Shown here piece after piece: positions 8,148 to 53,496 of a stretch of DNA of 64,000 nt. The notes beneath the pieces were generated by a model that saw only the letters and a list, made by a program, of their open reading frames with translations, was not told the DNA's origin and did no database searches. Every line of letters begins with the position of its first letter. Positions within the stretch are counted from its first letter, which is position 1. This DNA is from Fictibacillus phosphorivorans (GTDB taxonomy: Bacteria; Bacillota; Bacilli; Bacillales; Fictibacillaceae), in the NCBI RefSeq assembly GCF_001629705.1, contig NZ_CP015378.1, positions 744,001 to 808,000 on the forward strand, in the 5' to 3' direction. Made by a program: the position numbers and the translations under genes.

Positions 8148-8200
8148 TGTGGAAGTATTTGATGAGGTGTGAAGAAAGTGTCGTGTGAAAGGTGTATGTG

Positions 8201-8400
8201 AGCGATTCCCGAGGTTTGTGAGCGATTCTCGAGATTTATGAGCGATTCTCGAGGTTTGTGAGCGATTCTCGAGATTTGTGAGCGATTCTCGGGATTTATG
8301 AGCGATTCTCGAGATTTGTGAGCGATTCTCGAGATTTGTGAGCGATTCTCAAGATTTATGAGCGATTCTCGAGATTTATGAGCGATTCCCAAGATTCATC
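8201..8400. repeat. Ten tandem 20-bp units
   Basis: Exactly ten 20-bp units of consensus AGCGATTCTCGAGATTTATG, each differing from it at only a few positions (CC/TC, GAG/GGG/AAG, A/G before TG). The core TCTCGAGA is palindromic. The period is not a multiple of three, so the open frame across it is an artefact. It lies between the motB stop and a bidirectional terminator, so it would be in the motAB 3' UTR. Two related units occur at 55251-55290. Confidence 0.95.
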
Positions 8401-20064: not shown

Positions 20065-21216
20065 ATGTTCACCCCGCAATTGAATATGAAGCGTTTACCC
20101 TTATTACTTGCCGGAGCCATGCTATTTATCGTCGTAGCCACAAGCTTTATCACATCCTTTGAACACAAATATCGATTGAGTTCATCAACCATGCATAAGT
20201 GGCTAACGGAATTTTCTGGTGAAGCACTTGTTTATTTTATAGGATGGGAAAATCGATATTTTACACAAGAGCTTCCAAAAGAGAGTGAACCCCCGGCTTT
20301 ATCAAGTGTTCTGTTTGAATTAACGACAAGCATAAAGCCTGGGGATATCCGTAGTCTATTAGGAAACGAACTTCCCGGATTTGCGCTCTATGATTCAACG
20401 ATCATTGTTGCCGGAGAAGGAACGGATTACACAAACCTAGCGTATGAATCACCGCCACCGATGGAACTGCTGTTAAGTGGTGAAGAGGCAGAAGTTCAAG
20501 ATATCGAGCGATTGGAAGATCCAGATCCTTCTGATTCAGAGAATCCTCCGGGCCAAACGACGAGTGGAAAGAAGATCGCTTATATCTATCATTCGCACAG
20601 TTGGGAATCCTTCTTACCTCACTTAAAAGGTGTAACGAATCCTGATCATGCCATCCATTCTAAAGTAAACATCACGATGGTAGGAAAAAAACTCGGTGAG
20701 GAATTAGAGGCTAGAGGGATTGGGACAACCGTTGACATGACAAACATGACAGAGCTTTTACGAAAGAACAATACGGATTATCGTAAGAGTTACCCAATGT
20801 CACGTACACTCGTCCAAAGTGCGATGTCGAGTAACCAGGATATTGATTTGATTTTTGACCTGCATCGAGACTCGATGAGAGGAAAGTCTACCACTACAGA
20901 AATTAATGGGAAGTCTTACGCACGTACTTTATTCGTGATCGGTAAAGCGAATCCTAATTTTGAAAATAACCAAAAAGCAGCACAAGAGATCAATGCGATC
21001 TTAGATAAAAAATACCCTGGTTTAAGCCGAGGGGTTATCGGAAAAAACAAAACACAAGGAAATGGTGTGTATAATCAAGACCTTTCTGACCACGCTTTAC
21101 TTATTGAATTTGGCGGTGTGGATAACAATATGGATGAGCTTTACAGAAGTGCAGAAGCAGTGGCTGAAGCAGTTGCAGAGTACTATTGGAAAGAAAATGG
21201 AGCGAAAAAAGAATAA
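20065..21216 (+). CDS. SpoIIP-family cell-wall hydrolase
   Basis: A 383-residue protein with an N-terminal membrane anchor (about 11-30), a low-complexity acidic linker (about 145-168) and a C-terminal SpoIIP domain: IAYIYHSHSWESFLPHL, DLIFDLHRDSMRG, FVIGKANPNFENN and HALLIEFGGVDNNMDELYRS. The His and Glu positions match the amidase/endopeptidase that, with SpoIID and SpoIIM, thins septal peptidoglycan for engulfment. The canonical spoIIP follows gpr, which is absent here, so this may be a paralogue. GTGGAGG-type ribosome site. Confidence 0.88.
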   Translation: MFTPQLNMKRLPLLLAGAMLFIVVATSFITSFEHKYRLSSSTMHKWLTEFSGEALVYFIGWENRYFTQELPKESEPPALSSVLFELTTSIKPGDIRSLLGNELPGFALYDSTIIVAGEGTDYTNLAYESPPPMELLLSGEEAEVQDIERLEDPDPSDSENPPGQTTSGKKIAYIYHSHSWESFLPHLKGVTNPDHAIHSKVNITMVGKKLGEELEARGIGTTVDMTNMTELLRKNNTDYRKSYPMSRTLVQSAMSSNQDIDLIFDLHRDSMRGKSTTTEINGKSYARTLFVIGKANPNFENNQKAAQEINAILDKKYPGLSRGVIGKNKTQGNGVYNQDLSDHALLIEFGGVDNNMDELYRSAEAVAEAVAEYYWKENGAKKE

Positions 21217-21225
21217 TGTTTAAAG

Positions 21226-21261
21226 GCTCTAGAGGTGGTGATAACCTCTGGAGCTTTTTTT
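21226..21261 (+). terminator. Terminator of the SpoIIP-like gene
   Basis: Eleven-pair stem GCTCTAGAGGT/ACCTCTGGAGC (one wobble) with T run. Confidence 0.92.
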
Positions 21262-21288: not shown

Positions 21289-21393
21289 GTGGATAGTAAA
21301 AATAGCAGAGTGGACAGTAAATTGATAAAAGTGGACAGTAAAACTCAAAAATTGGACAGTATTTTCTTAAAAGTCGACAGTAAGTACCATATA
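21289..21393 (+). repeat. 21-bp period array A (five units)
   Basis: Five units starting at 21289, 21310, 21331, 21352 and 21373, each beginning GTGGACAGTAA-like (GTGGATAGTAA, GTGGACAGTAA twice, TTGGACAGTAT, GTCGACAGTAA) followed by ten variable A/T-rich bases. The period is exactly 21. It lies after the SpoIIP-like terminator. Confidence 0.9.
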
Positions 21394-21434
21394 GAAGTCT
21401 GTGCATAGGCGCCGTTTTTTTGTTAATGGCGGTA

Positions 21435-21518
21435 ATTTGTCCAATTGACTAGTGAATCTGTCCGATTTGAACATTAATCTGTCGGATTGGTCACATCATC
21501 TGTCCAATTTTGGCGCCG
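21435..21518 (-). repeat. 21-bp period array B (four units, inverted)
   Basis: Four units at 21435, 21456, 21477 and 21498 with core ATCTGTCCAATT, the reverse complement of AATTGGACAGAT, so the same motif family as array A in opposite orientation. A GGCGCC occurs before (21408) and at the end (21512). Between the arrays are 41 bases with no other feature. Confidence 0.88.
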
Positions 21519-21725
21519 CAAATTTCCGAAGCGTCTGTATAACAACTCAATGCGGACACAAAAAAACCGTTTTGAATGATTGAAACAATACCTAATTTCA
21601 TAACAGTCGTCATATCTGCAAATCCTATAAAAAAATGGTATAAAAAGAGAGAAGTCACTTGTTTTAATTACTAAGGGAAGGGAATAAAAGAGAGAAAGAG
21701 AAGATTGGTAAAAAGGAGCACGTGC

Positions 21726-23228
21726 ATGAAACGAATATGGGAATTTTTCCTCACACTATTGTTACTCGTCTGTTTATACATCGTTTTCTTTGCAGAAGGA
21801 TATGTAATAATCAAAACAGTATTTGGGCTCCTTTACATCGCAGTGATTCTGTATACGATCTATTCGTTAATGCTCGAGAACAGAACAGCTCAGCATACAC
21901 TTCTATGGATATATGTATTGATTTTATTTCCGTTTATCGGATATATGTTCTACCTGTATTCGGGCCAACTTTATTTAAAAGGGCATCTTTTCAAATCGAA
22001 AAGAAAGAAAGACAGGGACGAATGGATCAGAGTATCTAAACAAGAAGAAAAGCCTGATTTTAGTGACTTAAAAAGGCATCAACAGTGTTTTGCGACACAC
22101 GCTCATCATATTACTCTTACACGTTTGAACAGAAAAACAAGTTCAAAAATACTAAAGAATGGCCAAGAGACGTTTCCTGAAATTTTTGCAAGATTAGAAG
22201 AAGCCAAGGAATATATACATATTCAGTATTACATCTTTCGCTCAGATCGCCTTGGTAAAGATATTATTGATCTGTTAATAAGAAAAGCAGATGAAGGTGT
22301 AAAAGTTAGGTTTTTATACGATGGGATAGGAAGTCTTTCTCTTCAGCAGTATGACATCGACAGAATGAAAAAGGCAGGAATTTTAGTTGAAGCTTTCCTA
22401 CCCGTACGATATGGCTTCTTTAACCAAAAACTTAATTTCAGAAACCATCGTAAGATCATCATTATCGATGGAAAGGTTGGTTTTGTTGGAGGTCTAAATG
22501 TAGGAGTCGAATATTTAGGAGAAGATCCTGAGATTGGTTTCTGGCGCGATACTCACATGGTAATGGAAGGAGAAGGTGTTCAAGTTCTTCATGCGATCTT
22601 CTTAATGGATTGGGAATATGTTTGTGGAGAAGATCTGTTGGAAGATAATCACCTTACTACATCATACCCTGCTGAAGGAGACGGAACTGTTCATGTTGTT
22701 GCTAGTGGTCCAGACACCCAGCTAGGAATCATGAGTGATCTTTTCTATTCGCTGATCTCATGTGCAGAGAAATCAATCTGGATCGCAACGCCATACTTCG
22801 TACCTAATGAAGCAATTCGAACAGCATTAAGAGTGGCAGCAAAAAAAGGAGTTCAGGTACGATTATTGGTTCCCGAAATCAATGATGGCTTCTTAACACA
22901 ATATGCAACGCGCTCTTATTTTCCAGAGCTTTTACGTTCGGGAATTGAGATCTACTCTTACAAAAAAGGATTCCTTCATCAAAAAGTTATCATTATCGAT
23001 GGTGATACAGCTTCAATCGGTACAGCCAATATGGACATGAGAAGTTTTCACCTTAATTTCGAAGTGAACGTGTTCTTACTGAATACATCATCAGTCCGTC
23101 ATCTCGTAGAACAATACGAAGAAGACATGGTGGAATCGGTAAGAGTAAAACCTGTCGAGTTTTATAAAAGAGGTCTATGGGAACGGACAAAAGAATCCTT
23201 TGCACGCCTTTTCTCAGGGGTTCTCTAA
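21726..23228 (+). CDS. cls: Cardiolipin synthase
   Basis: A 500-residue membrane enzyme joining two phosphatidylglycerols into cardiolipin. Two N-terminal membrane helices (about 5-25 and 30-60) precede two phospholipase D domains with HKD motifs: NHRKIIIIDGKVGFVGG near 240 and LHQKVIIIDGDTASIGT near 420. Length is normal for Bacillus ClsA/YwnE. A TTG at 21705 would add seven residues, but AAAAGGAGC is placed for ATG 21726. Confidence 0.93.
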   Translation: MKRIWEFFLTLLLLVCLYIVFFAEGYVIIKTVFGLLYIAVILYTIYSLMLENRTAQHTLLWIYVLILFPFIGYMFYLYSGQLYLKGHLFKSKRKKDRDEWIRVSKQEEKPDFSDLKRHQQCFATHAHHITLTRLNRKTSSKILKNGQETFPEIFARLEEAKEYIHIQYYIFRSDRLGKDIIDLLIRKADEGVKVRFLYDGIGSLSLQQYDIDRMKKAGILVEAFLPVRYGFFNQKLNFRNHRKIIIIDGKVGFVGGLNVGVEYLGEDPEIGFWRDTHMVMEGEGVQVLHAIFLMDWEYVCGEDLLEDNHLTTSYPAEGDGTVHVVASGPDTQLGIMSDLFYSLISCAEKSIWIATPYFVPNEAIRTALRVAAKKGVQVRLLVPEINDGFLTQYATRSYFPELLRSGIEIYSYKKGFLHQKVIIIDGDTASIGTANMDMRSFHLNFEVNVFLLNTSSVRHLVEQYEEDMVESVRVKPVEFYKRGLWERTKESFARLFSGVL

Positions 23229-24202: not shown

Positions 24203-24404
24203 ATCGCTGAATTTACAGTTATTTTTATAGTTAAACTATAAACTACTGTAAAACGGGGGAACCAATCTTTTGGGGTGAATTTTGCTCTATTGCAAAAAGG
24301 GATACTCCAATCCCTAATCCGACAGCTAACCCCGTAAGCGTCATGTCACTGGAGAGGTCAATTTGGTGGAAAACCGGACCCGCTTTTTTGTGTGGTCTTT
24401 TTTT
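24203..24404 (+). ncRNA. c-di-AMP (ydaO-yuaA) riboswitch with terminator
   Basis: Core elements of the ydaO class appear in order: ATCGCTGAATTT (24203), ACGGGGGAACCA (24253), TTTGGGGTGAA, AGGGATACTCC and TCCGACAGCTAACCCCGTAA (24318-24337). An expression platform follows: GACC (24377-24380) can pair with GGTC at 24356-24359 (antiterminator) or 24394-24397 (terminator, then seven T). This class shuts off potassium uptake genes when c-di-AMP is high; the next gene is ktrA, the original yuaA context. Confidence 0.93.
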
Positions 24405-41624: not shown

Positions 41625-41750
41625 ATTGGACAGATAATGTTGTCGAATGGCTAAATTATCGACTCAACTGGACAGATTATCTTCCGAATTCGACAGATTA
41701 TGGAGTCAATCCGACAGATTAACTGCGAGAACGGACAGATTACCTTAAAA
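41625..41750 (+). repeat. 21-bp period array C (six units)
   Basis: Six units at 41625, 41646, 41667, 41688, 41709 and 41730. Cores: ATTGGACAGATAA, AATGGCTAAATTA (degenerate), ACTGGACAGATTA, ATTCGACAGATTA, ATCCGACAGATTA and AACGGACAGATTA, with variable 8-base tails. Same family as arrays A and B. It starts 12 bases after the chemoreceptor stop and ends before a terminator, hence in its 3' UTR. Confidence 0.92.
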
Positions 41751-41772
41751 AACTAGAAACTTAGTCACATAA

Positions 41773-53064: not shown

Positions 53065-53496
53065 CTAATAATAAGGGTATGGATAGGGTGGATAATATGG
53101 ATACGGATAAGGTGGATAGGGCGGATAATAAGGATATAAGGACAAAGCAGCTAATGATGCTAACGGGAAAATCTGACGATAAAATCTTCGATAATAAGGG
53201 TTACCATACCATTGTCTCTGATTTCTTTGAGAACCCTGTTGAACTTGCTGAGACTGTTGTTGAGGATTTGCAGTCTGTTGTGGAGATTGTGGACTTTCTT
53301 GTTCTTCTTCTACAGGCATCATGTTCTGTGGAACCATCATATACACATTTTTCTTGTCTAGATCGGTAATAATTCCTTCAACTTCTTGCCCGTCTCGGGT
53401 TTTGATCGTTACATGATAATACATATGTTGTTTGCACATCTGATGCATGTTATCAGCCCGTAGCTGGTCCTTCGAATTCAATTGATCATCACTCAT
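53065..53496 (-). CDS. Protein with Pro/Tyr-rich tail, possible spore or surface protein
   Basis: A 143-residue protein in three parts. A short LSm-like N-terminal region (about 20-62) contains HVTIKTRDGQEVEGIITDLD. A Gln/Pro/Ser-rich linker covers about 64-95. The extreme C-terminal tail of PYPPYPYPYY repeats makes up the last 30 residues. Such tails occur in coat or surface proteins, but I do not recognise the exact family. GGAGTG six bases before ATG 53496 sets the start; the frame is open nine codons further. Confidence 0.72.
   Translation of the reverse strand: MSDDQLNSKDQLRADNMHQMCKQHMYYHVTIKTRDGQEVEGIITDLDKKNVYMMVPQNMMPVEEEQESPQSPQQTANPQQQSQQVQQGSQRNQRQWYGNPYYRRFYRQIFPLASLAALSLYPYYPPYPPYPYPYYPPYPYPYY

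Follow-up and report, generated by a model that had tools for sequence, protein, structure and literature searches.

Recurrent intergenic arrays of 20-21-bp repeats with many different cores and a helical G+C phase in Fictibacillus phosphorivorans and relatives

Results

Facing arrays between a SpoIIP-family gene and a phospholipase-D superfamily gene

The window, a stretch of 64,000 bp (positions 744001-808000 of the single 4,230,665-bp contig of the Fictibacillus phosphorivorans genome, G000), holds two facing arrays of short repeats, termed A and B, between a SpoIIP-family gene and a gene of the phospholipase-D superfamily (Table 1). The A array begins about 28 bp past a hairpin with a T-run, a terminator candidate that was read by eye here and in the orthologues. 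The first-pass annotation had described five plus-oriented and four inverted units with an exact 21-bp period, and this is borne out by the unit register and by Tandem Repeats Finder, which detects both arrays; our B register, counted from the start of TTGGACAG, equals the 21435-21518 given there. In G000, a two-unit pattern gave 72 matches with at most one mismatch, compared with none for a backwards control, and 94 compared with 12 with at most two mismatches, so the arrays of the window are not chance occurrences.

Table 1. Features of the window (positions count from its first base) and a transposase gene elsewhere in the genome.
Feature	Position	Strand	Description
Other-family array	8197..8396	+	ten near-identical 20-bp units, TGTGAGCGATTCTCGAGATT; behind a terminator-like hairpin (by eye)
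SpoIIP-family gene, upstream	20065..21216	+	PF07454, E 2.9e-80
Terminator candidate	21225..21261	+	hairpin and T-run behind the SpoIIP-family gene, read by eye
A-type array	21289..21393	+	five 21-bp units, GTGGACAGTAWWnnnnnnnAA; final unit GTCGACAGTAAG
Middle between the arrays	21394..21434	.	holds GGCGCC at 21408; length and sequence differ between species
B-type array	21424..21507	-	four 21-bp units, TTGGACAGATTAnnnnnnnAA; faces the A array
Phospholipase-D superfamily gene, downstream	21705..23228	+	PLDc, PLDc_2, PLDc_N
Second B-type array	41626..41751	+	six units (one degenerate); convergent intergenic region by simple ORF calls
Y1-transposase (RAYT-like) gene	L483:1625-1954 = G000:C1:3852625-3852954		

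Other parts of the initial description had to be revised. Instead of a single motif shared by both arrays, there are two related types, A (GTGGACAGTAWW) and B (TTGGACAGATTA), with 30 and 46 distinct units, respectively. The core is conserved as described, but of the 9-10 bases thought to vary freely only about 5-7 truly do; these positions are G+C-rich (27-63% by position), and the positions next to them are A/T only. Of the two GGCGCC sites placed near the ends of the middle, the first does lie inside it, but the second (21512) lies beyond the B array. Since the 41-base middle thus contains only one such site and neither is retained in all orthologues, GGCGCC looks incidental.

Two familiar kinds of repeat could be set aside. 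A period of 21 bp corresponds to seven codons, and by eye the B units read L-D-R-L-x-x-E/R/Q; peptide coding is nevertheless ruled out by stops in the free codons and by the 20-bp period of other families, likewise read by eye. CRISPR arrays have long exact repeats and spacers of around 30 bp, and they are ruled out by the 21-bp period, the small number of free bases and the degenerate cores. Elsewhere in the window, a c-di-AMP riboswitch (24219-24356; Rfam RF00379, 83 bits) lies upstream of two genes that we take to resemble a K+ uptake pair, and a short GGATA-rich tandem repeat, possibly coding, occupies 53068-53136.

The TGGACAG family in the genome and in relatives

The arrays are not confined to the focal locus. 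Chaining units in fetched loci yielded 23 arrays of the TGGACAG family at 19 G000 loci, all with a strict 21-bp period; type A (GTGGACAGTAAATnnnnnAAA) accounts for 10 and type B for 13. An isolated match at 1266729 proved on inspection not to form an array, and six others (246971, 309631, 1114158, 1613793, 2078021 and 4168825) were taken as chance and kept outside the chaining. Judged from position and GC skew, whose sign change we place between the 1.9- and 2.0-Mb stretches of G000, nine of the 10 A arrays read with replication, while B arrays have no constant orientation. The facing layout that had drawn attention to the locus is not essential: A and B are paired at 4 of the 19 loci (every pair facing), and one relative (G016) has no B array at the focal locus. 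Across six species the distance between A and B ranges from 67 to 72 bp, so the two facing arrays are not phase-locked.

Relatives keep the 21-bp period; the random spacing that would have spoken against a conserved period was not seen. Two-unit TGGACAG matches number 26-78 in nine of 17 other Fictibacillus genomes, 12 in a tenth (G010) and 0 or 1 in the remaining seven. A units with a 21-bp period and divergent spacers also occur, among the matches listed, in Planococcus, Planomicrobium, Metabacillus kandeliae and Alkalihalobacillus macyae, and again in Bacillus OV166. A genome of another family, G057, has A units too, with some arrays much longer; its 122 two-unit matches include many-unit arrays, some with a 40-bp higher-order period. 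In a scan of a contig collection that gave at least 120 stretches, 18 loci were inspected; those from outside Bacillales look like coding or near-perfect repeats and were not counted as members. A three-unit pattern gave 10 stretches in a viral collection, by eye mostly coding-like or near-perfect and none clearly with the divergent-spacer architecture. Two viral contigs (L368 and L370) carry near-perfect GGTGGACAGATT repeats adjoining GACAAAATTAACT-like sequence, possibly transposon ends.

Cores diverge more slowly than spacers

Core divergence between orthologous arrays is half that of the spacers or lower. Divergence of core, spacer and flank at four orthologous loci was.053/.112/.119,.037/.296/.216,.118/.225/.125 and.173/.366/.313; the flank value is closer to the spacer at three of them and to the core at the fourth, the C locus. 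At the A-array locus of the window, core and spacer were compared in seven species. Units are gained or lost whole among orthologues. We then separated the differences by whether they preserve the G+C class of the base. Differences within a class affect 166 of 7,080 core cells as opposed to 784 of 13,281 flank cells, and S-W differences 648 of 7,080 as opposed to 2,032 of 13,281. The deficit in cores is thus stronger for class-preserving than for class-changing differences, an indication that the cores are read in a base-specific way. Substitutions in the G+C-rich patch of the spacer are weakly composition-preserving, with an S-W share of 0.65 compared with 0.72 in the flank.

Many cores share one architecture

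The TGGACAG arrays are one family within a much larger class with many cores. A motif-free lag scan of noncoding DNA, covering 464 kb of G000, gave 26 periodic hits, 22 of them at lags 20, 21, 41 or 42; in 400 kb of G005, a genome with no TGGACAG match, these lags account for 17 of 21 hits. Four hits, none at these lags, came from a Markov control (142,664 noncoding bases). The cores found in G000 are GACTTAATT, CACCGGTAA, GGCCTATAA, TTATAAGTCTTCA, ATCCACGAG, TTTCACGG and TGAGCGATT, and those of G005 include TTCGCTCAA, ATCACATAA, TCTCACGA, TATCAGCAA and GGTGAAATT.

A stricter list comprises 25 intergenic arrays in 784 kb of G000 (19% of the genome). Three of these have four units, 12 have five, nine have six and one has 18; the step from unit to unit is 21 bp in 81 cases, 20 in 32 (17 of them from the 18-unit array), 19 in five and 42 in one. 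By our own grouping they fall into about nine core families (A and B with two arrays each, G and C with five, D, E and H with three, F with one, and the 18-unit TGAGCGATT array). The strict filter left out six arrays, namely the window array at 8199, L223:3431, L225:19138, L227:10135, L233:14119 and L241:16831. Isolated single cores exceed the count of the backwards pattern for three of nine cores (TGGACAGAT, 9 vs 3; CACCGGTAA, 6 vs 0; TTTCACGG, 26 vs 14), equal it for one and fall below it for five.

Several families have common array ends, since identical ends accompany different cores. TGTCGA/TCGACA stands at an end of 14 of the 25 G000 arrays, compared with 31 of 610 background pieces (120 nt each); a leader of 36 bp (ACGGTACGTGTT..ACACGTTC, leader II) is found at the end of five, and six have neither signature. 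Among 20 G005 arrays the corresponding numbers are seven, five and eight. Leader II, seen at L241:8885-8930 and at many other loci, is a dispersed sequence with ACGTGT..ACACGT arms that is strongly conserved in the genus and precedes arrays with different cores. Directly in front of leader II, G000 and G002 carry a segment of about 0.9 kb that G009, G003, G004 and G014 lack (L297 and L298 compared with L299-L302), a change of neighbour at the leader boundary. One array-end signature, TTTGTCGAAAA (e.g., L242:11650 and L405:6655), resembles what we take to be a Spo0A box, and the E-family core TTATCCACGA presumably resembles a DnaA box.

Within the order Bacillales the class looks patchy, judging by lag hits from 100 kb per genome. 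G008, of the same genus, gave three hits, all at lag 20, 21 or 41; G019, of the same family, gave seven, two at lag 20 and the others at 47-52; G028 gave three, one at lag 42; and five further genomes (G037, G039, G042, G044 and G046) together gave 12, among them two weak hits, one at lag 20 and one at lag 42. Similar arrays are present in Planococcus, Metabacillus, Alkalihalobacillus and Bacillus OV166. We found no description of such arrays in the literature searched, which was mainly open-access.

G+C content follows the helical repeat

The mean normalised G+C power of the arrays peaks at 10.25-10.5 bp, reaching 7.5 in 24 G000 arrays (the 18-unit array set aside) and 6.4 in 15 G005 arrays (those of 20 candidates that passed a score and spacing filter), compared with 1.14-1.16 in controls. 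Power exceeds 3 in 23 of the 24 and in all 15 arrays but in only 92 of 737 control noncoding pieces. A 21-bp repeat does not by itself produce this excess: in simulated 21-bp arrays with random cores, power is on average equal at 10.5 and 21 bp, and P10 exceeds P21 in a fraction of 0.49-0.52. By contrast, P(10.x) is larger than P(21) in 22 of 24 G000 arrays, 13 of 15 G005 arrays and 20 of 24 arrays from other taxa (mostly loci fetched for holding TGGACAG), that is, in 55 of 63 arrays, those within one family being non-independent observations.

By family, seven of eight in G000 have a mean P10 above P21, in A (5.1 vs 4.7) and D (9.9 vs 9.1) by a narrow margin. The 10-bp excess is absent from the single F array (P10 1.6, P21 5.6), from the ATCACATAA and TCCCACGTT arrays of G005 and, in other taxa, from the 20-bp GATCATAGA array of Planococcus (0.2 vs 4.6), from CCGGATAGT (2.9 vs 9.7) and from two more. 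At 10.5 bp per turn, the families with a period of about 20 bp (F and K) drift off one face by around 34 degrees per unit. The first-pass annotation had supposed that phase and core are maintained and that a protein might read one face of the helix every two turns of B-DNA; the slower divergence of the cores and the 10.25-10.5-bp phasing lend this supposition support from sequence comparison.

Conserved slots with different cores

The SpoIIP/PLD slot was read by eye in 17 of 18 genomes (G017 was left out): seven hold TGGACAG, eight a CGTGGATT-type array, one ATGCTCGTTCG and one (G008) no array. G003, which is 95% identical to G000 over the downstream flank and gene start, carries the CGTGGATT type here. 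At L226:17901, read in 16 of 18 genomes (G012 and G017 left out), eight have TTATAAGTCTTCA (three units in G001), six have five other cores and two have none, so that this single slot holds, by eye, six different cores in the genus. At L242:11661 there are 11 arrays of the GGCCTATAA type, a two-unit remnant in G015 and a ATCACATAA array in G001; none was seen in G013 and G017, and G007, G008 and G009, whose long inserts were read over their first 700 bases, were left unscored. Taken together, sister species often carry an array with a different core in a given slot, so that slot and architecture outlast the core.

Enrichment between convergent genes

The first-pass annotation had suggested comparing array positions with gene ends, and this comparison revealed an enrichment between convergent genes in both G000 and G005. 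We considered intergenic regions of 150-900 bp and a lag score of at least 14, with genes taken from simple ORF calls, so that single contexts may err. In G000, arrays are found in 11 of 30 convergent, 13 of 133 tandem and one of 59 divergent regions (convergent vs divergent, p 1.4e-5; convergent vs tandem, p 7e-4); in G005, in eight of 20, eight of 65 and three of 30, with a convergent excess over divergent and tandem regions at p 0.017 and 0.0098, respectively. Control lags of 17/24 and 18/23 gave 0-2 per region class. Tandem and divergent regions do not differ significantly (p 0.068 in G000, 1.0 in G005), and the convergent excess, seen in both genomes, is the only firm one among the placement contrasts. 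It could in part reflect sites where insertions are tolerated.

Wherever a terminator is visible by eye, the arrays usually lie behind it. The origin half of G000 is denser (18 arrays in 364 kb vs seven in 420 kb, p 0.015, with neighbouring arrays treated as independent), while the 19 A/B loci alone show no significant origin bias (13 of 19, p 0.17).

Discussion

The head-to-tail sites two turns apart, the base-specific cores, the helix-phased alternation of G+C and A/T, the length of about 110 bp and the position at transcription-unit ends together suggest a multimeric protein that wraps or bends DNA. We therefore propose that the arrays may act at the DNA level as multi-unit binding sites for a protein where transcription units end, with bent or wrapped DNA and a boundary role, a reading to which we give roughly an even chance. 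Each 20-21-bp unit would span two helical turns, one with the family-specific core and the other with a loosely specified G+C-rich patch, the two being separated by A/T blocks. Four to six units (about 85-125 bp) would set the cores on nearly one face and let stiff G+C and bendable A/T segments alternate in helix phase. A putative multimeric protein might bind cooperatively and bend or wrap the DNA, and the resulting nucleoprotein body, behind terminators or between convergent genes, could serve as a boundary that absorbs transcription-driven supercoils or stops read-through.

Several known systems share some of these properties. Iterons of theta plasmids and other initiator-site arrays consist of a few direct repeats about two helical turns apart that are read by a multimeric protein. 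The present arrays have the same layout; unlike iterons, they are scattered on the chromosome with many cores per genome. A search of 72,556 plasmids gave one weak hit for the window arrays (Enterococcus, E 0.06) and none for two other families, and no phage match was found for the window arrays; a plasmid or phage iteron origin thus finds no support in the plasmid search with three arrays and the phage search with one. The BIME/REP elements of E. coli and other bacteria, including the gyrase-binding BIME-2, are likewise dispersed intergenic, modular sequences with many copies near gene ends, several families per genome and a possible gyrase link, and the arrays may resemble gyrase-bound BIMEs in function. 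They differ in having no 7-bp hairpin stems, in their strict 20-21-bp head-to-tail period and in cores that differ between species at one slot; moreover, the resident Y1-transposase gene is flanked by a repeat other than the arrays. The TAACTGA repeats of Beggiatoaceae are also abundant intergenic short direct repeats with a proposed protein-binding role, but they consist of one heptamer that, in the genome studied, lies mostly just upstream of start codons (PMC4679880); the arrays described here have numerous cores with a spacing of about 21 bp and are enriched in convergent regions. Functionally, the E. coli gyrase motif comes closest (PMC6379681). Strong gyrase sites such as this motif and the phage Mu SGS are about 100-130 bp long, helix-phased in G+C and A+T and located downstream of transcription units, as the arrays are, whereas the arrays have base-specific cores once per two turns and a phase of 10.25-10.5 rather than 10.75 bp.

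This parallel raises the question of whether gyrase itself could be the binder, reading bendability, wrapping some 130 bp and removing positive supercoils between or behind genes as at E. coli BIME-2. The E. coli sites are described as having a 130-bp motif with a 10.75-bp G+C periodicity; they are overrepresented behind highly transcribed operons and in some of the BIME-2 elements, and they follow an ori-ter gradient (PMC6379681). The length of the arrays (about 85-125 bp), their helical G+C periodicity with its 10.25-10.5-bp peak over roughly 100-130 bp, their excess between convergent genes and their higher density in the origin half (18 in 364 kb vs seven in 420 kb, p 0.015, neighbours counted as independent) would all fit, and a reader of bendability would account for cores that are swapped under a constant architecture. 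However, such a reader would not require cores conserved base by base, and recognition of shape rather than bases does not agree with the stronger suppression of class-preserving differences in cores. In addition, the five Bacillales genomes that are nearly array-free in 5 x 100 kb necessarily have gyrase, the origin bias is not significant for the 19 A/B loci alone (13 of 19, p 0.17), and the E. coli sites downstream of operons are reported not to be hard-wired in sequence (PMC6379681). Because gyrase alone leaves base-specific cores unexplained, we keep it as an unlikely rival and favour a putative sequence-specific wrapper.

The arrays might instead be mobile repeats, that is, non-autonomous elements (REP-like, or ends for a Tn7/Mu- or IS21-type transposase) that spread to safe places behind terminators. 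The families are dispersed, several have common ends (14 of 25 with TGTCGA/TCGACA, five of 25 with leader II), close species differ in the family at one slot, and a Y1-transposase gene is present in all 18 Fictibacillus genomes (the sole match in 16). Nevertheless, a 7-bp stem (loop 3-8) occurs in none of 24 arrays compared with 99 of 736 controls. The Y1 gene of G000 stands between GGGGTCAG.CCCC palindromes, and the 4 kb read there contain no array; the REP/BIME route via RAYT thus finds no support. The array-rich G057 has only broken Y1 pieces (three of three matches), whereas the array-poor G037 and G042 have an intact Y1. Transposon ends of the Tn7/Mu or IS21 kind find no support either, the cognate genes being present in few genomes of the genus (Mu-transpos_C, PF09299, in four of 18; full-length IstB in two of 18) and the nine IstB loci inspected having 24-bp repeats at four, a two-copy 20-bp repeat at one and a 21-bp array at none. 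Neutral relics, moreover, would not hold their cores while spacers drift, and we consider this explanation quite improbable. An element acting in RNA, with facing arrays that fold into a long hairpin or offer serial protein sites in read-through transcripts, would agree with the stable fold of the window pair (-63.7 kcal/mol, z -3.56, none of 200 shuffles as good) and with the strand of the A-type cores, which is the coding strand for the upstream gene at the focal locus and, by eye, at most other A loci, the 3716k locus excepted. It is very unlikely given that 4 of 19 A/B loci are paired, that no 7-bp stems occur inside 24 arrays, that arrays usually lie behind visible terminators (by eye) and that it is hard to see what a G+C phase of 10.3 bp would mean for single-stranded RNA. 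We find it barely credible, finally, that the arrays are functionless slippage products: the TGTGAGCGATT family (10 and 18 near-identical 20-bp units) and the long G057 arrays do look freshly duplicated, but different cores share one 20-21-bp period, cores are conserved where spacers are not, 24 of 25 arrays have 4-6 units, and most arrays show the common helical G+C pattern.

Within the protein-binding reading, it is tempting to speculate that the arrays represent a previously undescribed element, although we advance this only as a tentative possibility. Conserved slots where transcription units end would hold a helix-phased wrapping array of 4-6 units that retains its period, unit number and 10.3-bp G+C phasing when its core is exchanged wholesale; this would imply core-specific, fast-turnover wrapping proteins, analogous to sequence-positioned nucleosomes or insulators, in some Bacillales. 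On the strict count of 25 in 784 kb, G000 is expected to carry about 130 such elements, and around a third of the sampled convergent intergenic regions of at least 150 bp hold an array (11 of 30 in G000, eight of 20 in G005). If the arrays wrap DNA where transcription units end, they would provide defined, portable 110-bp sites at which to test supercoil domains and gene insulation, and fixed slots with changing cores would offer a rare natural experiment on the genome-wide replacement of a binding specificity.
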